Below, in pieces: positions 8,235-62,973 of a DNA stretch of 64,000 bases. Where the stretch lies: positions 1 to 64,000 of the forward strand of contig JACEFZ010001353.1 of assembly GCA_014155875.1 (NCBI GenBank), in the 5' to 3' direction. Position 1 is the stretch's first letter. Each line of letters starts with the position of its first letter. The DNA comes from Cepaea nemoralis. Its lineage: Eukaryota; Mollusca; Gastropoda; Stylommatophora; Helicidae. The notes under the pieces are model-generated. The model saw only the letters and a list, made by a program, of their open reading frames with translations. It did no database searches and had not been told where the DNA came from. The position numbers and the translations under genes were made by a program.

Positions 8235-8357
8235 GGGACGCAGAGGTGATTCCAAGGCACCAGGGCCGGGTTATATACTGGCCAAGACCTATTGACGCGT
8301 CCTCGTCGAGAGTCCTGGGCAACAGGTCCCTTCGGGGTCCTGGCTAAAGTCAGTAGG
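8235..8357 (+). ncRNA. HDV-like ribozyme fold in RzR copy 1 (P1 damaged)
   Basis: Same architecture as copies 2 and 3: a GGGACGC 5' strand, a 9 bp P2, J1/4 GGGCAAC, P4 capped by UUCG and J4/2 CUAA (fits CNRA). The P1 3' strand reads GAGUCCU, which leaves a G-A mismatch at pair 6, so cleavage may be impaired. P2 carries an A-to-G change that turns U-A into U-G and keeps the pair. Confidence 0.65.
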
Positions 8358-8568
8358 ATCGCCGATTCCTCCGAAGTCGGAGAGTGTCTGCCTGTACGGC
8401 GAGGAACCACCATTCTGCACACCAATAAGCCAGACATGGGACAACGGATACTCACGCAAACCTCAGGTCCTGTATGACATCACACTGATGTTGGACAACA
8501 GGATGCCTTCATCCGACATACAGGACTTCGCGTTGGAGCTCAAGCCAACGAACACAAGCAAGCAAGCA
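8235..8568 (+). mobile_element. RzR retroposon copy 1 with TSD
   Basis: This ~334 bp element starts GGGACGCAG and ends with two to three AAGC units. An ACCAGCTGAAC(G) TSD lies at 8224-8235 and 8569-8580; the G at the junction is ambiguous. It is full length by comparison with copies at 30.1 and 53.8 kb. No tRNA, 5S or 7SL head is recognisable. It contains the 10 bp stem GTCCTGTATG/CATACAGGAC near the 3' end. The TSD and tail imply target-primed reverse transcription by a LINE that I cannot identify here. Confidence 0.9.
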
Positions 8569-9470: not shown

Positions 9471-10584
9471 TGCGTTCCCAAAATAAAATAACGGGATCCA
9501 TCAAATGCAGCCATCAGCATAAAACAATCAATTTCTGACAACATCAACAATGTTGCATGTCCTTCGTGGAACGTTTCGTTCAACCCCTGCTTGATTTTAC
9601 ATAAAACAACACCAGACAGTTCTCTTCGCGCAAGGCCTCCATTTACTGAAGGAAAGAAGAGTAAGAAAATCCTTGCAGATAATTGCCCATTAAACAGAAC
9701 CGTGTCCTCATCAAACCATCTTCATCCAGCCAGCCATTAATCTACCGCTGGAGCTTTTCTATCCAAAGCACCAAAGCTACACTGGAGTATGTCGTCTGCA
9801 AACTACAGCCGGCATCGATCTAATTTACCAACAATAGCCCCCGTGCCGCGCTGCTCTTCCCAGAAGCCACCCAGTCAGACGAACTCAAACCCCCCTGTAA
9901 AAAATCACCCGGACAAACAGAATCCCACGTTACCAATCTCGCCCAGGCGACCAACATTAAACAATCCCTGGTGACCCTGGGTACGGGGTACGGTCGTCGG
10001 TTGTGAGAGCGGTTCTCAAAGAGATGCTTTCACACACGCTAAACGCCAACGGGGGGCGGACAAACAGGGGAAACCGCCGGTAACTATTAAGACAATATCG
10101 GGGACTGGGTGCTCGAGACTGCGCTAATTCAATCAAGAGAAAAATGATATTTTTCATCGGAAGAAGCGGGGTAATTTCAAGTTGGGATTCATTCGAGCCG
10201 CGTAGACGTGTCTCTACAGTCGGTTCTATAGATTGTACATAATTTGATCATGGCGGTGGTTGGTTGCCATGGTGAGCGTGGCCAATGTTGATATTCATGA
10301 TGGCGTTGATGATAATATGATGATGACGACAGTGATGAAGAGGAATACGCTAACTATGAGGATTAGATGGATGCCGCTACGAAACGACAATGAACTTAGT
10401 GGTGGTGCGCACGAGTCCTCCGAATGTTTGGCAATCGTCTGAAAAGACTAGACGCAGGATCCACTACCCGTGGTTAGCAAACTTTCATTGTCTACTCCCA
10501 CATTTTTAATGTCTCTTGGCCTCAAAAACTAGCTCACATGTCAAACTCTATCATACACCTATGTATGTAGACAGATAATAGTCA
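9471..10584. other. No recognised feature
   Basis: About 1.1 kb without a defensible gene or repeat. Small imperfect GAT-rich stretches lie near 10290-10350. Confidence 0.45.
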
Positions 10585-11200
10585 TTGTATGCCTGCTTGC
10601 CTGTCTGCCCCTGTCTTGTCTATCTTTCTACATGTGTATTCTGTCCGTCGCTGTCTTGTCTGTCTTTCTATATGTGTATTCTGTCAGTCTCTGTCTTGTC
10701 TGTCTTTCTATATGTGTATTCTGTTCGTATCTGTCTTGTCTGTCTTTCTATATGTTTATTTTGTCCGTCTGTCTTTCTATAGTGTATTCTGTCTGTCGCT
10801 GTCTTGTCTGTCTTTGCATATTTGTATTATGTATGTATGTCTCTCTTGTCTGTCTTTAAATATGTATATTCCATCCGTCTCTGTCTTGTCTGACTTTCAA
10901 AATATGTATTCTGCCTGTCTCTGTCTTGTCTGTCTTTCTATATGTGTATTCTGTCTGCCTCTGTCTTGTCTGTCTTTCTACATGTTTATTCTGCCTGTCT
11001 CTGTCTTTCTATATGAGTATTCTGCCTGTCTCTGTCTTGTCTGTCTTTCAATGAGTGTATTATGTCTGTCTTTCTACGTGTGTATTCTGCCTGTCTCTGT
11101 CTTTCTATGTGTATTCTGCCTGTCTCTGACTTGTCTGTCTTTCTATTTGTGTATGCTGTTTGTGTCTCTGTTTTGTCTATCTTTCCATATCTGTATTCTC
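10585..11200. repeat. ~40 bp CT-rich minisatellite
   Basis: About 15 units of roughly 40 bp built on CTGTCTTGTCTGTCTTTC followed by TATATGTGTATTCTGT, with shortened units near 10775 and 11060. A 213-codon frame (10589-11230, plus strand) is open through it because the unit lacks stops; its Cys/Leu/Ser/Val-rich product is a repeat translation. Confidence 0.92.
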
Positions 11201-11639
11201 CCTGCCTCCCGGTCGTGTTTTGTGGGGTAAAACCCCCACGCCCCCGAAGCCACGAGTTTAGTGTGTGACCTGCAAAGTCCATTTGAAGTCCAACCACAAG
11301 TGGTTTGTCGAAGCAAAATTGCCTTGCTATCCCAGGAGACATCCCTACAACTCGGTGGAGCTCAGGACTGTCACAGTTGGTAATAGCGCAGCTATAACAG
11401 CTTCTAGCATAGCTGAATAGTTGGAAATTGTTCCATCGACGTATCCTCCTTAGCAATGTTGACGCAAGAACAGATAAGCAAACAGAGATTACCGGCTACT
11501 TTTGGGAATTCATTTCTTTCATTTGCCTGGGATAGTGTACTGGTGTGTGGCTGGTAGAGATTTACCAGCATACCAGCCCATGTGGACTGTCAACTGGGTG
11601 CTGCTTTTCAGTTGCACTGGGATGGAAATTAAATACGAC

Positions 11640-17158: not shown

Positions 17159-17220
17159 ATATTATGGAAGGAACATTGGTCAGATGTATCAGTCCCCCTG
17201 ATTAAACGGTCGGTTGTACT

Positions 17221-20200
17221 TCTTCTTCTTCTTTCGTTCGCTTGAAATATGTCTATATCTGCAATGTCGTCTCTTGCATGAATTGAACTGTCTTTTTCAG
17301 TTCACACAGTGGTCCATAGAGTTTATCTTCCACTGTTCGTCTCTCTAGGCCAGAAGGTTTGCCTAGATATGTTATATTTTGGGCAGTCTTGGAGTATGTG
17401 CTCTGCTGTCTGCGACGCCAATCCACATGTGCACATGGCTGTTTCACCAATCTTGAATTTTGTATACATGTGGTTGCGTAATCTATTGTGTCCTGTTCTG
17501 AGGCGCAGAATAATGACTTGTTCTGGTCTGTCCATAACGTGGTAGTCATCTTGAGCAGGTTTTGGTGGCTTTCTGACTGATTTGATCATTCTTTTCTTTT
17601 GGTGGTATGTAACGGGCACATCAGGCTGTTCTTCTTTGGCTCCTTCCTTAGCCAATTGATCAGCTCTGTCGTTTCCGGGTACTCCACAGTGGGATGGTAT
17701 CCACTGTATGGTGACTTTATGCTGACTGCCAAGTTCAGAAAGTAGTGTCCTTAGTACTGGCAATTTCCCAGAGAGGAGCGCCTCGAGTACTGATTTTGCA
17801 TCTGTCAGTAGCACCACAGGTTGTGTACCATTGCTGTTATTTAGTAATTTCTCTGTTGCTATCTTGATTGCCTCAATTTCGGCATCATAGTTATGGCAGT
17901 ACTTTCCTGTCGGTACTCTGGCTGTGTCCCTAGTATTATTTGGGTATTCTATGTACACTCCCGCTCCTCCATTTCGAACAGCATTTTGTGCTGACCCATC
18001 TGTGTAGACTCGGATCCAGAGGTCCTGTGGGTATTCTTCATCAAGGAAGCTGAGAGTGGCTGTTCTGCGCAGCACACTGTTCTGTTCTTCCTTGTCAAAT
18101 ATTCCTCTCACTTTTGTCTGGATTTTTAACGATAGTCTATGCTCATCTTTCCATGGAGTTCGCTCTGGAATAGTTGTTAGGGGGATACCAACTGTGGGCA
18201 GATCAGTGGTTTCTCTGCAGAGTCGTTTGGCCTGGTGGATAAAACTACTTCTTTTCAACCGCCCCATAGCTAGGTTTTCAAATCTGTTCTTCATAGGGTG
18301 GCCTGGCAAGCTGAGGAACTTTTCTGCTTGTATTAGCGTTTTCGTATCTCTGCGCTCACTCAGTGCCTGTGTCCTTCCCATCTTCTCCATTTCCACTATA
18401 GGGGTTGATCTCATCCCTCCTGTGGTGACTCTAAGTGCTTGATTTTGCACCTTGTCCAGCTCTTGTAGTGTGGTTTTTGATGCTGAACACCACGCAGTTG
18501 ACCCATATTCCAGGTGTGGTCGTATGCTCTGTTGGTAAACTTTGCTAAGTATTTTCGTACTGGCTCCCCATGTGGTTCCACTTAGCTTTCTCAGAATGGC
18601 TATTTTCCTTCTGGCTTTAGCTACTGATTTGTTGATGTGCTTTCTCCATGTCAGCCTGCCATCAAATGTTACTCCAAGGTATGTTGGTTCTTTATCATCT
18701 CTTAGGGGTGTTCCATTTATCTGGATGATCCCTGCCTTTTGTTTTGGAGAAAGGGTAAATAGGGTGGTGCTGCACTTGTCAGTGTTTATGCTGACACACC
18801 ATCTATTTGCCCATGCAGCAAATGTATCTACAGCTCTTTGTAGCAATCTGGTGGCCACTGATGCATATTCATTTGTGCTCCATAGAACCAGGTCATCGGC
18901 GTACATTGCCGCTTTAATTCCATGCGGTAGGTGAGCAACAAGATCATTGATGAAGATTAGAAAAAGTGTGGGGGACAAGACTCCGCCCTGGGGGACACCG
19001 TGACGCAGTAGTACTTTCTTGCTCTTGAGTCCGTCTATCTGTACTCGGGCTCTTCTGTTGTGCAAGTATGCTTTCACCCATTTGTACATTCTTCCATTGA
19101 CTTTGCAGTTTCTCAGTTTCTTCATCAGACCTTCTTTCCAGACTTTGTCAAAGGCTTTCTTCAGATCTATCCATGCTGCAAGCACCAGCTTCTTCTCTTG
19201 GAATGCATCCTCAATTTCTTGAGAGAGGTAGGTTGTCTGATCTTCCGTAGAGTAGCACTGCCTAAAGCCAGCCTGCTGTGGCACAAGGATGTTTTTACTT
19301 TCAATGTACCACTGCAGTCTGTGATTGATGATGCGCTCCAGTGTTTTGCAGAGACAGCTGGTGAGGCTAATTGGTCTGTAGCTGGAGGCAATGGAACCAT
19401 CTTTCCCTGATTTTAGGAGGGGTATCATGATTGCTTCTCTCCAGGCTTGTGGAACACTGCCTAAGGTCCAGCTGTTATTGAAGATCTGCAACAGCTTTGT
19501 TTTGGCCTCTGTTCCTAGGTTCCTGATCATTTCATTGGAGATACCATCAGCTCCTGGTGACTTTCTCATTTTCAGTTTTGATATGGCTAGCTCCAGTTCG
19601 CTGATTGTGATGGGTGCCTCCAGAACCTCACGTACTATTTCCTTCTGTCCTGTATGTTGTCGTTTCTCTCGAATCTCTTGTTGTTTCTCTGGACTAATTT
19701 TGATATTGTTATCTTGTGCGAATGAGTCCGCAAAATGGTCAGCTGCTTGCTTTCTTGTTAAGATTTTTCCATCTTTATGTAGCGCAATTTTTGAGTTTCT
19801 CCCTGTGCCCTCGTCATTAAGCTGTTTTATTAGCTTCCACAATTTCCTTGTGTCTCTTTCAAAGTTCAGAGACTCTGTTTTCTCCTGCCAGCTTTTCCGT
19901 CTAGCCTGCAGCTTGGCCCTTTGAAATTTGGCTTTTGCGTGCTGGAATTTATTGTGGTGCTCTTGGCTGGGTGTGGCCTCTGCTTGCTTTCTACACACTT
20001 CCACCTCATTATGCAACTGTTCCAGTTCACTACTCCAGTAGGGTTTATATTGTTTACGGGCTCCTCTTGGTACTGTTTCTTGCGCTGCCTGTAGCATGCA
20101 TTTCCCAAACTCTTCAACTACTTTATTTATGTCTTTCTCAGTGTTCAGGTTTCTAACCAGTATGCTGGTGCGATGCTTGTACATTGCCCAGTCTGCTTTC

Positions 20201-21430
20201 TTGTAGTTCCACCTCGAGAGGGTGCTGCTTTCACTTAGAAGCTCATTTTCTACGGTTAGAAAGACTGGCCGATGGTCACTGCCACCAAGTTGTTTCCCAA
20301 CAATTCGTGTAATGTTCCACTCCAGGTCTGGTGAATGAAAAGCCAGGTCAGGTGTAGTTGTAGAGTGCCATGATCTCGAGTAGAAAGTATGTGGGTCGGA
20401 CGGCTTGTTAATCAGGATGAATCTATTCTCATCCTGCCAGTCTTCCAGTCTCTCTCCTCTCTGGTCCATGTGATCATAGCCCCAACTCTGCGAGTGGCTG
20501 TTGAAATCACCACACACAATCATTTTTTCTTTTAGTGGTAGTGTGTCCAGTGCCTGTGGGCGGTCACTTGGACAGTAGTAATTGATCAGATGTAGGTCTG
20601 TATTACCTGTCTTAAGTTTAAGTGTCTGATACTCAGCCCCTTCCATGTAGACTTCAATTTGGGAAGCCATGATGTTATTTTTTACAAGGGTCAGTATCCC
20701 ACCTTTTCGCCTGTCCTTTCGGTCAGATCGGTAACACTGGTAGCCTCTGATTTTGAAGGCTATATTTTCATTGAGGTGAGTTTCTTGCAGGCAACATATG
20801 CTTACTTTTTCTTGGTCCAAGATGTTTTCTAATTCTATTTTTTTGTTGCTGACTCCCTCCGCATTCCAGTGCATTATTTTAAGTCTTCGTTTGGTAAGGC
20901 CAGTCATCCTATTCTCATGTCCCCTGGCTCCACAGGACATCTGAGAAGGACCTCCAGTAGTTGGGGTTGGACCCTTTCGAGACATAGGGCCCGGCACTGC
21001 ACCTGCCTGGGGGTCCAAAGCAGGGCGAGCACCATAACGATTAGCAGTAGTCGACATATTCCATTTTGCGTGATTGCGTGGCATCCTGATTTCTGTGGTG
21101 CGCCTCTTGGCTGGTTGCCTCCGACTTCAGCACCTTTCTTTGCTAGAGCAGACTGTGGTCTCACTCGAGTGTAGATGTGTACGCGCGCACACACCTGTCT
21201 GCGCATGCATGTACGTGCATACACATCTAGAGCATACTGGTTATTTTCAGGCGCCAGAGATTCGCCGTCGCCCCTTCTCCTGTTAGTTTAAACAGGTCCG
21301 CCGCGTGAAGGCCAGGAGTTGGACTTTTGCTGCATAGGTTATGTATTCACGAGCCATTGAGGTATTTAAGCAATGTTGGGCGCTCACCCCAACACCGTGC
21401 CTCGGCTACATACAGCAACATTTGGAACCC
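17221..21430 (-). mobile_element. Non-LTR retrotransposon LINE-1 (EN-RT-RNase H), with TSD
   Basis: The element ends at its 3' side in (GAA)n (17221-17234 on the plus strand reads CTT repeats). GTCGGTTGTAC(T) lies at 17209-17220 and 21431-21442, an 11-12 bp TSD. The 5' leader before the frame is about 346 bp and starts GGGTTCC. No ORF1 is present upstream, so the copy is either 5' truncated or of a single-ORF type. Clade placement (I/Nimb/Ingi-like) is inferred from the RNase H domain. Confidence 0.9.
17323..21084 (-). CDS. LINE-1 polyprotein: endonuclease, reverse transcriptase, RNase H
   Basis: 1,253 codons on the minus strand. An APE-type endonuclease spans about residues 66-280, with N74, E101, D193/N195 and the S-D-H triad at 269-271. 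The reverse transcriptase spans about 500-780, with D640 in WIDLKKAFD and YADD at 728-731. RNase H spans about 1025-1150, with D1029, E1069, D1095, H1132 and D1139 all present. A Cys/His cluster (CTC...H...C) follows near 1215-1237. The first ~65 residues are Pro/Gly/Ser-rich and unassigned. The frame stops early: the last ~25 codons of the family's conserved tail (ending in a VQFMQET-like peptide) lie in another frame at 17253-17340. The copy therefore has a late frameshift but keeps every catalytic residue. The enzyme would copy its own RNA at nicked chromosomal DNA. Confidence 0.92.
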   Translation of the reverse strand: MPRNHAKWNMSTTANRYGARPALDPQAGAVPGPMSRKGPTPTTGGPSQMSCGARGHENRMTGLTKRRLKIMHWNAEGVSNKKIELENILDQEKVSICCLQETHLNENIAFKIRGYQCYRSDRKDRRKGGILTLVKNNIMASQIEVYMEGAEYQTLKLKTGNTDLHLINYYCPSDRPQALDTLPLKEKMIVCGDFNSHSQSWGYDHMDQRGERLEDWQDENRFILINKPSDPHTFYSRSWHSTTTPDLAFHSPDLEWNITRIVGKQLGGSDHRPVFLTVENELLSESSTLSRWNYKKADWAMYKHRTSILVRNLNTEKDINKVVEEFGKCMLQAAQETVPRGARKQYKPYWSSELEQLHNEVEVCRKQAEATPSQEHHNKFQHAKAKFQRAKLQARRKSWQEKTESLNFERDTRKLWKLIKQLNDEGTGRNSKIALHKDGKILTRKQAADHFADSFAQDNNIKISPEKQQEIREKRQHTGQKEIVREVLEAPITISELELAISKLKMRKSPGADGISNEMIRNLGTEAKTKLLQIFNNSWTLGSVPQAWREAIMIPLLKSGKDGSIASSYRPISLTSCLCKTLERIINHRLQWYIESKNILVPQQAGFRQCYSTEDQTTYLSQEIEDAFQEKKLVLAAWIDLKKAFDKVWKEGLMKKLRNCKVNGRMYKWVKAYLHNRRARVQIDGLKSKKVLLRHGVPQGGVLSPTLFLIFINDLVAHLPHGIKAAMYADDLVLWSTNEYASVATRLLQRAVDTFAAWANRWCVSINTDKCSTTLFTLSPKQKAGIIQINGTPLRDDKEPTYLGVTFDGRLTWRKHINKSVAKARRKIAILRKLSGTTWGASTKILSKVYQQSIRPHLEYGSTAWCSASKTTLQELDKVQNQALRVTTGGMRSTPIVEMEKMGRTQALSERRDTKTLIQAEKFLSLPGHPMKNRFENLAMGRLKRSSFIHQAKRLCRETTDLPTVGIPLTTIPERTPWKDEHRLSLKIQTKVRGIFDKEEQNSVLRRTATLSFLDEEYPQDLWIRVYTDGSAQNAVRNGGAGVYIEYPNNTRDTARVPTGKYCHNYDAEIEAIKIATEKLLNNSNGTQPVVLLTDAKSVLEALLSGKLPVLRTLLSELGSQHKVTIQWIPSHCGVPGNDRADQLAKEGAKEEQPDVPVTYHQKKRMIKSVRKPPKPAQDDYHVMDRPEQVIILRLRTGHNRLRNHMYTKFKIGETAMCTCGLASQTAEHILQDCPKYNISRQTFWPRETNSGR

Positions 21431-23095: not shown

Positions 23096-26000
23096 TCTTC
23101 TTCTTCTTCAGCATTCCGAGCCATTGAGGTTCTTTGCTGCAAATACAATCTGTCTCCATTCGTCTCTCTGGTGGACCTTCTCTTGCCAGTCGTTGATTCC
23201 AAGTGCTTGTAGGTCTGTATGTATATTATCTCTCCACCGCCTTCTTGGTCTACCTCGGGGTCTACGGTCATTTATTTCCTGAGTGTAAGCGAGTTTTGTT
23301 TCCCTATTATCTTCCATTCTTTCTATATGCCCCAGCCATTGTAGTCTATTAGCCTTCATGATACCAGTGATTAGCGGGGACTTAAACAAATCATAAATGT
23401 CTTTGTTACTTCTTCTTTTCCACTCTCCACTTTGTGTATCCCTAATGGGTCCAAAGATGCGTCTTAAAATTTTGTTCTCAAAGGTTTGTAACAAGGCTTC
23501 GTCTCCTTTCGTTGTACTCCAGGTTTCAGAGCCATACAGCACAACTGGTCTGATCAGTGTTTTGTATATTGTGATTTTGGTGTTACGAGATAGCGCCTTT
23601 GATTTTAGTAGATGTTGTAGTGCATAGTATATCTTATTTCCAGAGTTGATTCTAGTTTGTATTTCTTCCCTTATGATGTTGGAGCAGTTGAAGATTGTAC
23701 CCAGGTATTTGTATGTTTCCGTTCTTTTAATGGTCATATTATCTATTTGTATGTGGCCAGAGTTTTTAGCCATTCCGTCTCTTGAAATTACCATATATTC
23801 TGTCTTATCTTGGTTGATAACCAGCCCCATCTGTTGGGCTTTTTCCTTTAAGTGAGTCAATATTTCTAATGTCTTTTGTTCACTTTGCCCTATAATATCT
23901 ATATCATCTGCATAACCAAGCAGCTTGGATGTTCCTCCAATATCACATTCCTCCTTTACCTTCCTTACAACTTTCTCTAGAGCCAGATTGAAGAGTAGCG
24001 GCGATAGTGCATCACCCTGTTTCAAGCCAGACGTTATTTGGAAGGGGTCTGATTTCCTGCCTTTATATGTTACTATATTATAAGTATCTTCCATGCATAG
24101 TTTGGTCATGTTAATTAACTTCCTTGGTATTCCAAATTCCTGCATAACATTCCATAGACTATTCCTATGGACACTATCATAAGCCTTTTTAAAATCCACA
24201 AAAATGTTATGGAGATCTCTTTTATATTCCCAATGTTTCTCGGCTATTTGTCGTAAGATAAATATCTGATCTATTGTTGATCTGTTTTGTCTAAAACCCG
24301 CCTGGTAGTCACCTAATATGTCTTCTGAATATGGTTTTAGTCTATTTAGTAATACTGCGGATAGTATCTTATAGCTTGTGGACAGTAGTGATATTCCTCT
24401 ATAATTTCCACATTGGAACTTGTCTCCTTTCTTAAAGATAGGTATCAATAATGACTCTTTCCAGTCATGGGGTAATTCTTCTGTCCTCCAGATTTTTATT
24501 ATTAGTTCGTATAGCTTTAGATGTAATGCATGGCCACCTGCCTTTATAAATTCAGCAGCAATTCCATCAGTCCCAGTTGCCTTATTGTTTTTAAGTCGTG
24601 TGATTACATATAGGATTTCTTCAAATGTAGGTTCTTCAATTTGTGGTTCGCATGTTAGAACCTCTTCCTGTGGGAAAATGTTACTTGGAGCTTCACAATT
24701 TAGTAATTCAATAAAATATTCTTTCCATGTGTTGCACATTTCTTCATTGGTATTTATCATATTCCCATTTTTGTCTTTTAAACCATATGTGTTTTGTTGG
24801 TGCCCTCGTTTCATTGACTTCAGTACTTTAAAAAACTTTCTGGATTCATTTTTCTGGTGATTAGTTTCCATATCTTTGATTATATTACTCATATATTCTC
24901 GCTTCTGCTGTCTGACTATTTTTGTAGCCTCTTTACATTCATTTCTATAATGCTCTTCCTTTTGGATGTTATTGATGTCATTTAACCATACATGTCTGGC
25001 ATTCTTCTTCTTAGTGACTGCTTCTTCACATTTTTGATTGAACCATCTGTTCTTTCTATGCGTGGTTGACACACCGAGACCTTCTGCGGTAGATTGAAGT
25101 GTATTCTTGATGTTCAACCAAGTTTGGTCAACGCTTTCCTCCAAAGGGTTTTGAAAAGTTTCAAGTTTACATTTTATTTCATCTGTAAATTTCTCTTTGA
25201 CTGTAATGTCTTGTAGTTTTTCTCTGTTATATGTTGGGTGTAATCTTTGTAGTTTAGTATAGAAAGCTCTCTTAAGTTTTATTTTAAATTTTGCTCCAAC
25301 GAGGAAATGGTCACTGTGGCACTCAGCTCCTCTATAACTTCTGACTTGCTGTATGTTTGATGCATTTCTGTTGTTAATTAAAATGTGATCTATTTGATTA
25401 TAGGTTCTCTTGTCACATGATTTCCAAGTTTGTTTGTGTATATCCTTTCTTTGTAGTCTGGTACTGCTAATCTGCAGTCCTTTGGCTTCTGCCAGGTTGA
25501 TGACTCTCCATCCATTATCATTTGAAGTTGTATGTAGGCTTTCCATACCGGCCACTTTTTTATTAGTTTGCTCTCTACCTATTTTTGCATTGAAGTCTCC
25601 CAGCACAATCAGGATGTCCTGTTTGGGGGTTTCTTCTATGACATCTTCCAGATCATTATAAAAGTCTTCTTTAATATCATCTTCTTTCTCTTCAGTAGGT
25701 GCATGTACATTAATCATCGTTATATTTTTCCATTTACCTTTTATTCGTAATTTACTAATCCTGTCATTAAAAGCTTTAAAGTTTAAAATGTTCCCCCATA
25801 ACTCTTTTTTGATGACAAATCCTGTTCCTAATTCATGTTTATTTTGGGTGTTTCCTCCATATATTATAATCATTCCATTTTGCTCTAAAGTACCCTCTCC
25901 TGGCCACCTTATTTCTTGAATTGCTGTGATATCCATTTGATATTCAACCAGCTCCCGGGTTAGTTCTTCGGCCGCTCCAGCTCGATATAGTGTCCGTACA

Positions 26001-26110
26001 TTCCATGTTCCAAATCTCAAAAGTCCTTTAACGTTCCAAGGTCGTTGTCCAGATAAGTCAGTATTTTGTTTTCCCCTATTGTCCAGAGTCCACTGATTGG
26101 TTATTAGCCT
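23094..26110 (-). mobile_element. RTE-type non-LTR retrotransposon LINE-2, apparently intact
   Basis: A single long frame is followed on the minus strand, after its stop, by five GAA/GAG-type triplets and (TA)n. The 5' boundary is uncertain; about 90 bp of leader before the first ATG is plausible. I found no TSD. Base composition is clearly more AT-rich than LINE-1. Confidence 0.85.
23108..26020 (-). CDS. LINE-2 ORF: endonuclease and reverse transcriptase
   Basis: 970 codons without a stop. The N-terminal endonuclease begins with GTWNVRTL at residues 4-11 (N7), with E36, D142/N144 in GDFNAKIG, D211-H212 and the S-D-H triad at 236-238. The reverse transcriptase spans about 475-740: D609 in FVDFKKAYDSV, GLKQGDALSP at 665-674 and YADD at 703-706. 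The C-terminus has RRPRGRPRRRW, the Arg-rich motif usual near the end of RTE-like proteins, then ends at NLNGSEC. The length and single frame fit RTE-type elements, which lack RNase H and a separate ORF1. Database entries for related proteins are often labelled craniofacial development protein 2-like; that label comes from the endonuclease fold and is not a function. Confidence 0.93.
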   Translation of the reverse strand: MRFGTWNVRTLYRAGAAEELTRELVEYQMDITAIQEIRWPGEGTLEQNGMIIIYGGNTQNKHELGTGFVIKKELWGNILNFKAFNDRISKLRIKGKWKNITMINVHAPTEEKEDDIKEDFYNDLEDVIEETPKQDILIVLGDFNAKIGREQTNKKVAGMESLHTTSNDNGWRVINLAEAKGLQISSTRLQRKDIHKQTWKSCDKRTYNQIDHILINNRNASNIQQVRSYRGAECHSDHFLVGAKFKIKLKRAFYTKLQRLHPTYNREKLQDITVKEKFTDEIKCKLETFQNPLEESVDQTWLNIKNTLQSTAEGLGVSTTHRKNRWFNQKCEEAVTKKKNARHVWLNDINNIQKEEHYRNECKEATKIVRQQKREYMSNIIKDMETNHQKNESRKFFKVLKSMKRGHQQNTYGLKDKNGNMINTNEEMCNTWKEYFIELLNCEAPSNIFPQEEVLTCEPQIEEPTFEEILYVITRLKNNKATGTDGIAAEFIKAGGHALHLKLYELIIKIWRTEELPHDWKESLLIPIFKKGDKFQCGNYRGISLLSTSYKILSAVLLNRLKPYSEDILGDYQAGFRQNRSTIDQIFILRQIAEKHWEYKRDLHNIFVDFKKAYDSVHRNSLWNVMQEFGIPRKLINMTKLCMEDTYNIVTYKGRKSDPFQITSGLKQGDALSPLLFNLALEKVVRKVKEECDIGGTSKLLGYADDIDIIGQSEQKTLEILTHLKEKAQQMGLVINQDKTEYMVISRDGMAKNSGHIQIDNMTIKRTETYKYLGTIFNCSNIIREEIQTRINSGNKIYYALQHLLKSKALSRNTKITIYKTLIRPVVLYGSETWSTTKGDEALLQTFENKILRRIFGPIRDTQSGEWKRRSNKDIYDLFKSPLITGIMKANRLQWLGHIERMEDNRETKLAYTQEINDRRPRGRPRRRWRDNIHTDLQALGINDWQEKVHQRDEWRQIVFAAKNLNGSEC

Positions 26111-26114
26111 TCTT

Positions 26115-30038: not shown

Positions 30039-30050
30039 GGAGATCCAATG

Positions 30051-30382
30051 CTTGCTTGCTTGTGTTCGTTGGCTTGAGCTCCAACGTGAAGTCCTGTATG
30101 TCGGATGAAGGCATCCTGTTGTCCAACATCAGTGTGATGTCATACAGGACCTGAGGTTTGCGTGAGTATCCGTTGTCCCATGTCTGGCTTATTGGTGTGC
30201 AGACTGGTGGTTCCTCGTCATACAGGCAGACACTCTCCGACTTCGGAGGAATCGGCGATCCTATTGACTTTAGCCAGGACCCCGAAGGGACCTGTTGCCC
30301 AGGACGCTCGGCGAGGACGCGTCAATAGGTCTTGGCCAGTATATAACCCGGCCCTGGTGCCTTGGAAACACCTCTGCGTCCC
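30051..30382 (-). mobile_element. RzR retroposon copy 2 with TSD
   Basis: 332 bp on the minus strand, from GGGACGCAG (30382) to the AAGC tail (30051). GGAGATCCAATG is duplicated perfectly at 30039-30050 and 30383-30394. Very similar to copies 1 and 3 (roughly 95 percent by eye); several differences are CpG-type transitions. Confidence 0.93.
30260..30382 (-). ncRNA. HDV-like self-cleaving ribozyme in RzR copy 2
   Basis: Numbering from the element's first base: P1 is 1-7 with 76-82 (GGGACGC/GCGUCCU, a G-U wobble at the predicted cleavage site). P2 is 54-62 with 115-123 (CCUAUUGAC/GUCAAUAGG, 9 bp). P3 is weak (63-65 with 73-75, two Watson-Crick pairs plus G-A). L3 is UCCUCGC, with CC available for P1.1 to GG at 83-84. 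J1/4 is GGGCAAC. P4 is 89-96 with 101-108, UUCG loop and one U-U mismatch. J4/2 is GCUAAA, where C110 would be the catalytic base. J1/2 is enlarged (46 nt) with its own CCAG/CUGG stem. Confidence 0.78.
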
Positions 30383-53737: not shown

Positions 53738-53822
53738 GTTGATAAAGACGTCGGTTGAAACGCTGGCCTCCATCTGTGAGTATTTTTTATTATTATTATT
53801 ATTATTTATTCATCCGTCTAGT

Positions 53823-53945
53823 GGGACGCAGAGGTGTTTCCAAGGCACCAGGGCCGGGTTATATACTGGCCAAGACCTATTGACGCGTCCTCGTCGAGCG
53901 TCCTGGGCAACAGGTCCCTTCGGGGTCCTGGCTGAAGTCAATAGG
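53823..53945 (+). ncRNA. HDV-like self-cleaving ribozyme in RzR copy 3
   Basis: All predicted helices form except the outer P3 pair: P1 7 bp with a terminal G-U wobble, P2 9 bp, P1.1 GG/CC, P4 with a UUCG loop. J4/2 reads GCUGAA, which fits the CNRA rule with a base change relative to copy 2 (CUAA). The predicted cleavage site is the TSD/element junction, just before 53823. If active, it would give the transcript a defined 5' end whatever upstream promoter was used, as described for R2, RTE and L1Tc elements. Confidence 0.78.
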
Positions 53946-54158
53946 ATCGCCGATTCCTCCGAAGTCGGAGAGTGTCTGCCTGTACGGCGAGGAACCACCA
54001 GTCTGCACACCAATAAGCCAGACATGGGACAACGGATACTCACGCAAAACTCAGGTCCTGTATGACATCACACTGATGCTGGACAACAGGATGTCTTCAT
54101 CCGACATACAGGACTTTGCGTTGGAGCTCAAGCCAGCGAACACAAGCAAGCAAGCAAG
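53823..54158 (+). mobile_element. RzR retroposon copy 3 with TSD
   Basis: 336 bp from GGGACGCAG to an (AAGC)n tail of about four units. CATCCGTCTAGT is duplicated perfectly at 53811-53822 and 54159-54170. Internal features: the ribozyme (first 123 nt), a CUCCG/CGGAG hairpin just after it, and a 10 bp stem at 54055-54064/54105-54114. A frame of ~80 codons is open in all three copies (copy 2 has one stop), without a known domain. Confidence 0.95.
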
Positions 54159-54174
54159 CATCCGTCTAGTTTTT

Positions 54175-54484
54175 CAGTCACATTCTGTGTTTACTACTAT
54201 GAGTGCCCATCAATACTTGCCAATGTATTTCTCGCAGTATTTCAATGGCCTCAGAGGTTTCAACAAATGACGTTTCTGTCTAGTCATCAACCAGTGCTGT
54301 AGCTTACCTTCAGACTGCAGACGACCAGACAAGGGTAGGAGAGGAAAGGACTGAGACAAGCTATCTGTTAGCTAATAATAGGGCACGCAGCTTCAAACAA
54401 CTAGAAGGTGAGACCAGCAATCTGCTAGCTAATAACATCTCAGGTACCACTTCAGACGATTCGATTAAGAGGCACGATGTACGA
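54175..54484. other. No recognised feature
   Basis: Imperfect short repeats of AGCTAATAAT/CTGYTAGCTAATAA near 54365-54440. Confidence 0.45.
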
Positions 54485-55906: not shown

Positions 55907-55924
55907 GATGACACCTCAGTCAAA

Positions 55925-56255
55925 CAAATATTTGTTTGCTAATGATACCTGTCAGATAAAGATTGTTTTGGTAATGACACCTTGATCAGATAAAGATTGT
56001 TTTGGTAATGACACCTTGATCAGATAAAGATTGTTTTGGTATTGATACCTCGGTCAGATAAATATTGTTTTGGTAATGACACCTCGGTCAGATAAAGATA
56101 GTTTTGGTAATGGCACCTAGGTCAGATAAAGATTGTTTTGGTAATGACACCTAGGTCAGATAAAGATTGTTTTGGTAATGACACCTCAGTCAGATAAAGA
56201 TTGCTTTGGTAATGACACCTCGGTCAGATACAGATTGTTTTGGTAATACATCTCA
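55925..56255. repeat. ~34 bp minisatellite
   Basis: About ten units of GTCAGATAAAGATTGTTTTG followed by GTAATGACACCTCG. Most variation is in the three bases before GTCAGATA. Confidence 0.96.
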
Positions 56256-56335
56256 GTCAGATGATTCCCCCCCCCCCCACTCTATGTCCATTATATTTCA
56301 AAGTGTCCCTTTGGAGCGGATGGTAGCAGTTAAAA

Positions 56336-61809: not shown

Positions 61810-61913
61810 GCAAAGCTAGTATATGACATGGTTGAGTAATTGAGTTCACTTTCCATAAGTCGCAGATGCCAATAAACTAACAAGTATGGGTAACCAAAGA
61901 TTTCCTCTGTAGG

Positions 61914-62830
61914 CTATAGTCTGTGAAGTCTGTAGTTGTTGGTTATCAATCTATATAGTATGTGAAGTCTGTAGTTGTTGGTTATCAATCTATACAGTAA
62001 GTGAAGTCTGTAGTTGTTGGTTATCAATCTATACAGTATGTGAAGTCTGTAGTTGTTGGTTATCAATCTATATAGTATGTGAAGTCTGTAGTTGTTGGTT
62101 ATCAATCTATACAGTATGTGAAGTCTGTAGTTGTTGGTTATCAATCTATATAGTATGTGAAGTCTGTAGTTGTTGGTTATCAATATATATAGTATGTGAA
62201 GTCTGTAGTTGTTGGTTATCAATCTATATAGTATGTGAAGTCTGTAGTTGTTGGTTATCAATCTATATAGTATGTGAAGTCTGTAGTTGTTGGTTATCAA
62301 TCTATATAGTATGTGAAGTCTGTAGTGGTAGTAATCAAGCTATAGTAAGTAAAGTCTGTAGTTGTTGGTTATCAAGCTATATATTATGTGAAGGCTGTAG
62401 TCGTTGGTTATCAATCTATATAGTATGTGAAGTCTGTAGTGGTAGTAATCAAGCTATAGTAAGTAAAGTCTGTAGTTGTTGGTTATCAAGCTATATATTA
62501 TGTGAAGTCTGTAGTGGTAGTAATCAAGCTATAGTAAGTAAAGTCTGTAGTTGTTGGTTATCAATCTATATAGTATGTGAAGTCTGTAGTGGTAGTAATC
62601 AAGCTATAGTAAGTAAAGTCTGTAGTTGTTGGTTATCAAGCTATATATTATGTGAAGTCTGTAGTGGTAGTAATCAAGCTATAGTAAGTAAAGTCTGTAG
62701 TTGTTGGTTATCAATCTATATAGTATGTGAAGTCTGTAGTGGTAGTAATCAAACTATAGTAAGTAAAGTCTGTAGTTGTTGGTTATCAAGCTATATATTA
62801 TGTGAAGGCTGTAGTCGTTGGTTATCACCA
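61914..62830. repeat. 39 bp minisatellite with higher-order structure
   Basis: About 23 units. The left half (61914-62320) is a homogeneous 39 bp unit (GAAGTCTGTAGTTGTTGGTT and ATCAATCTATATAGTATGT). The right half alternates this with a ~37 bp unit (GTGGTAGTAATCAAGCTATA) and a TATATATTATGT variant in recurring order. A 128-codon minus-strand frame repeats 13 residues exactly because 39 is a multiple of three. Confidence 0.96.
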
Positions 62831-62973
62831 TGATCTCAACGTACAGTAATATTTTTTTTTTGAAGTATATGCATAAACATACCTAAAAAATACAACTCTA
62901 AATATATCTTTACACTCCAACATATTAGCAGAATAACAAGAAACAATTATACACAAGCATCAAGATAAAACAG

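Follow-up and report, generated by a model that had tools for sequence, protein, structure and literature searches.

An HDV-like ribozyme architecture at the 5′ end of an abundant snail retroposon

Retroposon copies and the architecture of their 5′ ends

The window analyzed here, meaning the whole 64,000-nt stretch of Cepaea nemoralis DNA, carries three copies of a retroposon of approximately 335 nt that share 97-98% identity with one another. Copy 1 lies at 8235-8568 (plus strand), copy 2 at 30049-30382 (minus strand) and copy 3 at 53823-54159 (plus strand); the last, delimited by repeat family and alignment, retains all P1 and P2 pairs of the fold described below and has an (AAGC)n tail. All three copies start with GGGACGC, terminate in (AAGC)n and are bordered on both sides by a duplicated stretch of about 12 nt. 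For copy 3, the target-site duplication CATCCGTCTAGT is found at 53811-53822 and again at 54159-54170 (both plus strand), where the first C possibly belongs to the tail.

Several other features surround these copies. A LINE at about 17219-21430 (minus strand) has an open 1267-aa frame encoding endonuclease, reverse transcriptase and RNase H domains, and a second LINE at 23108-26113 (minus strand), with an (AAG)n(TA)n tail, has an open 1001-aa endonuclease-reverse transcriptase frame. Tandem arrays occupy 61837-62893 (39/75-bp units), 10577-11201 (40-bp units) and 55917-56290 (34-bp units). A single frame of protein-like composition (LYGEEPPVCTPISQTWDNGY...) is open at 53884-54270 (plus strand), running from within the 5′ structured region across the retroposon body and into the tail; its body peptide has no homologue among 5.8 billion proteins searched.

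HDV-like ribozymes are recognized by a conserved core composed of L3, J1/4 and a J4/2 that carries the catalytic C and follows a CNRA rule. The corresponding motifs here are UCCUCGY, GGGCAAC and CURA. For copies 2 and 3, the initial annotation had proposed that the first 123 nt adopt an HDV-like architecture, and all of the helices and core motifs that it named are present. In copy 3 the putative ribozyme spans 53823-53945 (plus strand), with a predicted cut between 53822 and 53823. P1 is a 7 bp helix in which GGGACGC (53823-53829) pairs with GCGUCCU (53898-53904) and which includes a G1-U82 pair, and P2 is a 9 bp helix (CCUAUUGAC/GUCAAUAGG) formed by 53876-53884 and 53937-53945. Between these strands lie P3 and L3 (53885-53897), with L3 reading UCCUCGU (53888-53894) and P3 (GCG/CGA) made of two Watson-Crick pairs and a G·A. 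The sequence GGGCAAC follows at 53905-53911; its leading GG could pair with the CC of L3 to form P1.1, and P4 (53911-53930), a helix of eight positions with one U·U mismatch and a UUCG loop, begins with its final C. J4/2 is GCUGAA (53931-53936), in which C53932 is the candidate catalytic nucleotide.

The 46 nt J1/2, which the earlier description did not name, forms two hairpins in the minimum-energy fold (53833-53849 and 53852-53871), and 95.9% and 96.2% of the respective alignment cells are paired. The ribozyme of copy 2 (30260-30382, minus strand) is the same as that of copy 3 except that L3 is UCCUCGC and J4/2 is GCUAAA. Copy 1 (8235-8357) has a G6·A77 mismatch in P1 and one U·G in P2. As judged by pairing potential, and for P1.1 from sequence, copies 2 and 3 can form every helix of the nested double pseudoknot comprising P1 through P4 and P1.1. 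An unconstrained minimum-energy fold, computed by a method that cannot represent pseudoknots, retains P1 and loses P2 (z = -1.94). In all three window copies, each of which has target-site duplications, nucleotide 1 of the ribozyme is also the first nucleotide of the element.

Chance, covariance models and variation among copies

To gauge how often such an arrangement arises by chance, we used a descriptor consisting of a 7 bp P1 starting with G, a P2 of at least 7 bp, a P3 with at least two of three pairs, CC in L3, GG after P1, a P4 hairpin, and CNRA before the 3′ strand of P2. This descriptor was written post hoc with the sequence known, and its tolerance in P3 was chosen to suit. On both strands of the 64 kb it matches copies 2 and 3 only. 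Shuffled windows gave no matches in 100 and then 6 matches in a further 2000, and shuffling the plus strand of the element 20,000 times gave 0.

Rfam models return nothing in the whole window at gathering thresholds, and a low-threshold scan of the window yields 33 matches, with HDV families absent among them. Tested against individual copies, drz-agam-2-2 scores 11.9 bits for copy 3 (E = 0.87) and HDV_ribozyme 16.5 bits for copy 2 (E = 6), both below threshold; all E-values reported here were computed across 4227 families. No hammerhead family appears in the scans of the window or of the tested copies, and exact core patterns are found at 0 and 0 places in viral and prokaryote contig collections.

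The retroposon is abundant in the 3.47-Gb assembly. When up to three mismatches are allowed, a 27-mer from its 5′ end occurs at 20,514 places, a count that includes tandem-array units three mismatches away, and a 27-mer from its body occurs at 25,904 places; the reversed 27-mers give 0. The weak point raised in the initial annotation, a P3 with only two Watson-Crick pairs, holds for the window copies and for the abundant young subfamily with its G·A. It does not hold for an older subfamily, whose P3 is fully paired (ACG/CGU, three pairs). The pattern that marks the older subfamily, ACGTCCTCGYCGTGMGYCCTGGGCAAC, occurs exactly at 96 places, 17 of them within one array (control 0), and at 2275 places when one mismatch is permitted, some of the one-mismatch places being without a full P3. 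We retrieved 20 of these loci, 18 matching the pattern exactly and 2 with a single mismatch; their P3, L3, 3′ strand of P1 and J1/4 are for the most part dictated by the search pattern. The sequence from P1 to the 3′ strand of P2 is spanned in 17 of the 20, including one with a 5-nt gap in P2 (L103); the others are without the 5′ part (L104), depart after the start of P4 (L111) or are without most of J1/2 (L112).

Four copies hand-picked from these 20 were compared with Rfam, and drz-agam-2-2 matches every one of them, at 23.9, 20.0, 16.0 and 12.7 bits (E = 0.00093, 0.012, 0.2 and 1.8). HDV-F-prausnitzii matches three of the four and HDV_ribozyme two. The search by covariance model that had been suggested for this region thus yields HDV-class matches, and none reaches gathering level, the best score being 23.9 bits against a drz-agam-2-2 gathering score of 38; that score is a diagnostic cut-off and not a definition of HDV-like ribozymes. 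In the Rfam alignments printed, L3, GGGCAAC, P4 and J4/2 are in register. Because the printed HDV_ribozyme and HDV-F-prausnitzii alignments place the 5′ strand of P1 within J1/2 and not at nucleotide 1, the matches to these two models support the core only.

Covariation in P1 and P2 across copies, another feature by which the initial annotation proposed to judge the fold, does not exceed that of shuffled alignments. We aligned 44 distinct ribozymes out of 67 sequences, after the extraction rule had dropped three (L037, L077 and L079); 12 further loci, the array loci L046-L075 and the LINE ends L090-L097 had been left out beforehand. Paired cells amount to 91.9% versus 91.7% in shuffles (53 of 500 shuffles reach the value), pairs with changes on both sides number 2, one in P1 and one in P2, versus a shuffle mean of 1.4 (196 of 500), and the covariation score is 0.081 versus 0.077 (32 of 500). 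When the partners are slid by 1-3 columns, 22-45% of cells are paired, a drop that mostly reflects how the structure was drawn. The slid structures have 2 to 6 two-sided pairs, and four of the six versions have 6, above the 2 of the true structure. Individual changes that preserve pairing are seen at P2 pair 5 (U-A, U·G and C-G) and at P1 pair 4 (A-U in 36 copies, G·U in 1 and G-C in 1). Over the 44 copies 92.5% of P1 cells are paired and the P1.1 columns are invariant in 44 of 44, both figures arising partly by selection of the copies. A search for changed 3′ strands of P1 found 8 places (control 6), of which 6 derive from the retroposon, and none of these 6 has all seven P1 pairs when inspected by eye. 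This is a weak test, because the 44 copies are close relatives that probably evolved mostly neutrally after insertion. Covariation therefore lends the fold no support but, since dead copies need not covary, does not refute it.

These data bear on whether the resemblance to HDV might have arisen by chance or convergence, in a 5′ end that is structured, GC-rich and never was catalytic. Such an origin would fit the absence of a gathering-level Rfam match and covariation that is not above control. Against it stand the low rate of descriptor matches in shuffled windows and elements, the alignment of three HDV-class models to one core in older copies, and the exact insertion junction described below, and we regard it as very improbable.

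Insertion junctions, a second 5′ end and tandem ribozyme segments

We examined the junctions between target-site duplications and the element in two sets of copies. The first consists of the 32 closest copies (30 loci, one of which is copy 3, and window copies 1 and 2), with two locus pairs that share a duplication and may be alleles. Here the duplication meets the element no more than 2 nt from G1 in 29 of 32. The second set was chosen without regard to the 5′ end and comprises 80 of the 82 body matches that headed the list; the two skipped loci (L113 and L114) had been read previously, and both begin with GGGACGC. Its members are exact body matches, which biases the set toward young copies, and start positions come from local alignments, such that the smallest shifts may be mutated ends. 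The element starts at nt 1-2 in 53 of the 80 copies and at nt 132 (8 copies) or 133 (6 copies) in another 14. Two more copies start at nt 129 and 130, and the remaining 11 starts are scattered between nt 5 and 104. Duplications, mostly of 10-16 nt and with at most one mismatch, flank 46 of the 53 full copies, 13 of the 16 short copies and 4 of the 11 copies with scattered starts, and were obtained for 7 of 1974 random pairings of mismatched flanks. The proposed architecture, the core sequence and the exact coincidence of predicted cut site and insertion junction are borne out both by the window copies and by the genomic copies sampled.

A uniform 5′ end alone would follow equally from a fixed transcription start, and promoter-defined SINEs typically have uniform 5′ ends. 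If initiation by pol II (through an initiator) or pol III sets the end of the RNA, the fold could be a decayed relic or simply a stable 5′ structure, as the loss of one P3 pair in the young subfamily might suggest. The authors of one R2 study likewise argue that the fold aids R2 templates by structure, not necessarily by activity (PMC11331408). On the other hand, the identity of the predicted cut site with nucleotide 1 would then be accidental, P1 is well paired across distinct copies (in part by their selection, as noted above), and a search for promoters gave nothing beyond chance. ARAGORN finds no tRNA genes in the window. With the usual A- and B-box consensus sequences, the best B box in the element has 4 mismatches (equaled by 497 of 500 shuffles), a relaxed B box has 2 (326 of 500) and an A box has 1 (266 of 500). 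We consider an end set by transcription start improbable. The narrower candidate of a tRNA-type pol III SINE is not supported, on the two grounds of tRNA gene content and box matches no better than shuffles.

The starts at nt 132/133 constitute a second discrete 5′ end, seen in other copies and equivalent to 53954-53955 (plus strand) of copy 3, 8-9 nt past the last ribozyme nucleotide. In 100,000 simulated runs with truncation spread evenly over nt 3-200, no 2-nt window held more than 6 of 27 starts, compared with the 14 observed. A separate master lineage without the ribozyme could account for the sharp position and for its share of the sample. Between nt 136 and 310, the 16 short copies (starts at nt 128-135) are not distinguished from the 53 full copies by any body site at p < 0.02, the eight common variable body sites give p values from 0.20 to 1, and both older-type and younger-type bodies are represented among the short copies. 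Such a lineage is improbable, and the lack of a separating body site indicates that the short form arose repeatedly.

Candidate causes of the second end are that the folded ribozyme arrests the reverse transcriptase, or that trimming or other processing creates a second RNA 5′ end. We gave no weight to a body domain starting at nt 133 in the minimum-energy fold, whose closing stem has three pairs. For R2 templates that have the HDV genomic ribozyme but lack rRNA homology, insertions are described as often slightly 5′-truncated, mostly less than 50 nt from the end (PMC11331408), whereas the truncations of the snail retroposon lie past the ribozyme. One tentative possibility is that the two-peaked distribution of insertion ends records ribozyme folding: during target-primed reverse transcription in vivo, the LINE enzyme would read through to the self-cut nt 1 or halt at nt 132/133, 8-9 nt before the fold, making the ribozyme both a 5′ processor and an obstacle.

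In some copies an 82-nt unit, extending from after the 5′ strand of P1 through GGGCAAC, is tandemly repeated. Unit-unit junctions occur at 150 exact places (control 0), and the 100 places listed fall into 27 clusters by our count. Nine loci were read. They include copies with two units (L046, L047 and L073), three (L043) and five (L048), and one copy on C2774 (its two ends in L050 and L072) for which 23 junctions are listed, corresponding to more than 20 units. All of these start at the 5′ strand of P1, with substitutions in some, and have flanks that match by eye. Another array (L045, its 5′ end in L118), with flanks ACTGACACTTTC and ACTGACACTGTC and a substituted first base, mixes old-type and young-type units, and L074 shows neither array end. 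Where both ends were read, the 5′ strand of P1 precedes the first unit only, and P4, J4/2 and the 3′ strand of P2 follow the last unit only. Repeats of 2 to more than 20 units sit inside single insertions, and the arrays may have moved intact or expanded later. If insertion ends do record ribozyme folding, these multi-unit elements would form a natural series of ribozymes with an ever longer J1/2.

Proposed mobilization, related systems and implications

Members of the LINE family at 17323-21126 (37 genome copies scored among 314,693 candidates) were examined as possible partners. Five copies (among L090-L097) share a 5′ start nucleotide, GGGTTCCAAATG (GGGTTCC), that is unrelated to the 5′ end of the retroposon, and neither a descriptor match in this LINE nor an Rfam ribozyme family at its 5′ end was found. 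The uniform 5′ end of this LINE could hide another processing element. Its 3′ end, TTTCAAGCGAACGAAAGAAG, resembles the young SINE end; 2 of 1000 shuffles score as high, as do 109 of 1000 in the comparison with the older SINE end. The LINE at 23108-26113 gives 548 and 831 of 1000 for the young and older ends, respectively. Because four comparisons were made, this resemblance is a lead only. Homologues of a window LINE protein, among those listed with an organism name, come from the gastropods Bradybaena similaris and Littorina saxatilis. Narrow searches for a LINE bearing the same ribozyme found none: the 3′ strand of P2 joined to a foreign body occurs at 0 places, and exact L3 and GGGCAAC with an altered P4 start occur at 7 places (control 13), of which 5 derive from the retroposon and 2 are without the element.

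Our preferred reading, to which we assign a probability of roughly 83%, is that a self-cleaving ribozyme of the HDV-like class occupies the leading 123 nt and sets the 5′ end of the retroposon, which would itself be non-autonomous and mobilized by a LINE. The element would be transcribed within a longer host RNA, in which the ribozyme is predicted to fold and cut directly before G1, leaving nucleotide 1 as the RNA 5′ end. By analogy with published R2 work, the folded ribozyme may also protect this end against decay. A putative LINE protein would then prime at the 3′ end and copy to G1, giving insertions whose observed ends are flush with their target-site duplications. Copying, or the template itself, may sometimes end at nt 132/133, a proposed cause for the second copy class whose ends are seen in the genome. 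A structured J1/2 and a long P2 are reported to accelerate mosquito drz-Agam-2-1 (PMC4908430), and the two J1/2 hairpins and 9-bp P2 found here suit such an acceleration. An HDV-like fold is also described as favoring R2 template function (PMC11331408).

The closest kin of the retroposon are the R2 SIDEs and NARTc/RIME. R2 SIDEs and R2/R1 hybrid SIDEs of Drosophila are, as described, short and non-autonomous elements with a 5′ HDV-like ribozyme and a 3′ end that serves the machinery of another element (PMC3414825); the snail element is likewise short, with the ribozyme exactly at the 5′ junction, and its 3′ end would be used by LINE machinery. SIDEs occupy fixed rDNA sites and have known R2/R1 parents (PMC3414825), whereas the snail retroposon is dispersed, its 5′ ends number approximately 20,000, and the narrow searches above yielded no parent LINE bearing this ribozyme. 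The trypanosomatid NARTc, RIME and SIDER elements, short like the one studied here, have a common 5′ module of about 77 nt with an HDV-like fold of the L1TcRz type, and the module is also common to the autonomous L1Tc/ingi elements (PMC4035085); the snail ribozyme has 123 nt and two J1/2 hairpins. In SIDER2 two ribozyme modules stand in tandem (PMC4035085), whereas here the tandem repeat is the 82-nt ribozyme segment alone, reaching more than 20 units.

Mosquito drz-Agam-2 (RF01788; PMC4908430) provides the best-scoring Rfam match and has a structured J1/2 domain, and the consensus of its model and the older copies have a ACGUCCUCGUCGU-like P3-L3 in common. The snail ribozyme differs in its P2 of 9 bp, where Agam-2 has 12, its short P4 and its two J1/2 hairpins. 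Animal R2 ribozymes are also HDV-like and lie at the 5′ end of a non-LTR element, where they are reported to cut at or near the junction, with an active site near that of HDV in some lineages (PMC3774820). The predicted cut of the snail retroposon is at its junction too, but unlike R2 it lies outside rDNA and has no R2 protein attached. Animal hammerhead retrozymes, one of them in mussel, are small non-autonomous retroelements with a ribozyme as well (PMC7761336), and self-cleavage is likewise predicted here. They belong to another ribozyme class and accumulate as circular RNA (PMC7761336), whereas no RNA circle would be expected for the retroposon because it has a single ribozyme, at its 5′ end. 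A survey of the open-access literature by title and abstract start, broad in part, found no short mollusc retroposon with an HDV-like ribozyme. New here are the second discrete 5′ end and the tandem ribozyme segments; the family is also set apart by its dispersal and great abundance.

If the ribozyme is active, then C. nemoralis harbors an animal SINE-like family, dispersed and approximately 20,000 copies strong, in which a ribozyme and not a promoter generates the 5′ terminus. The range in ribozyme segment number among copies, from one to more than 20, would then offer a natural experiment on how much insertion J1/2 tolerates. The many junctions would likewise make it testable whether a 5′ HDV-like fold helps retrotransposition, through a precise end and stability, or hinders it by arresting the enzyme.
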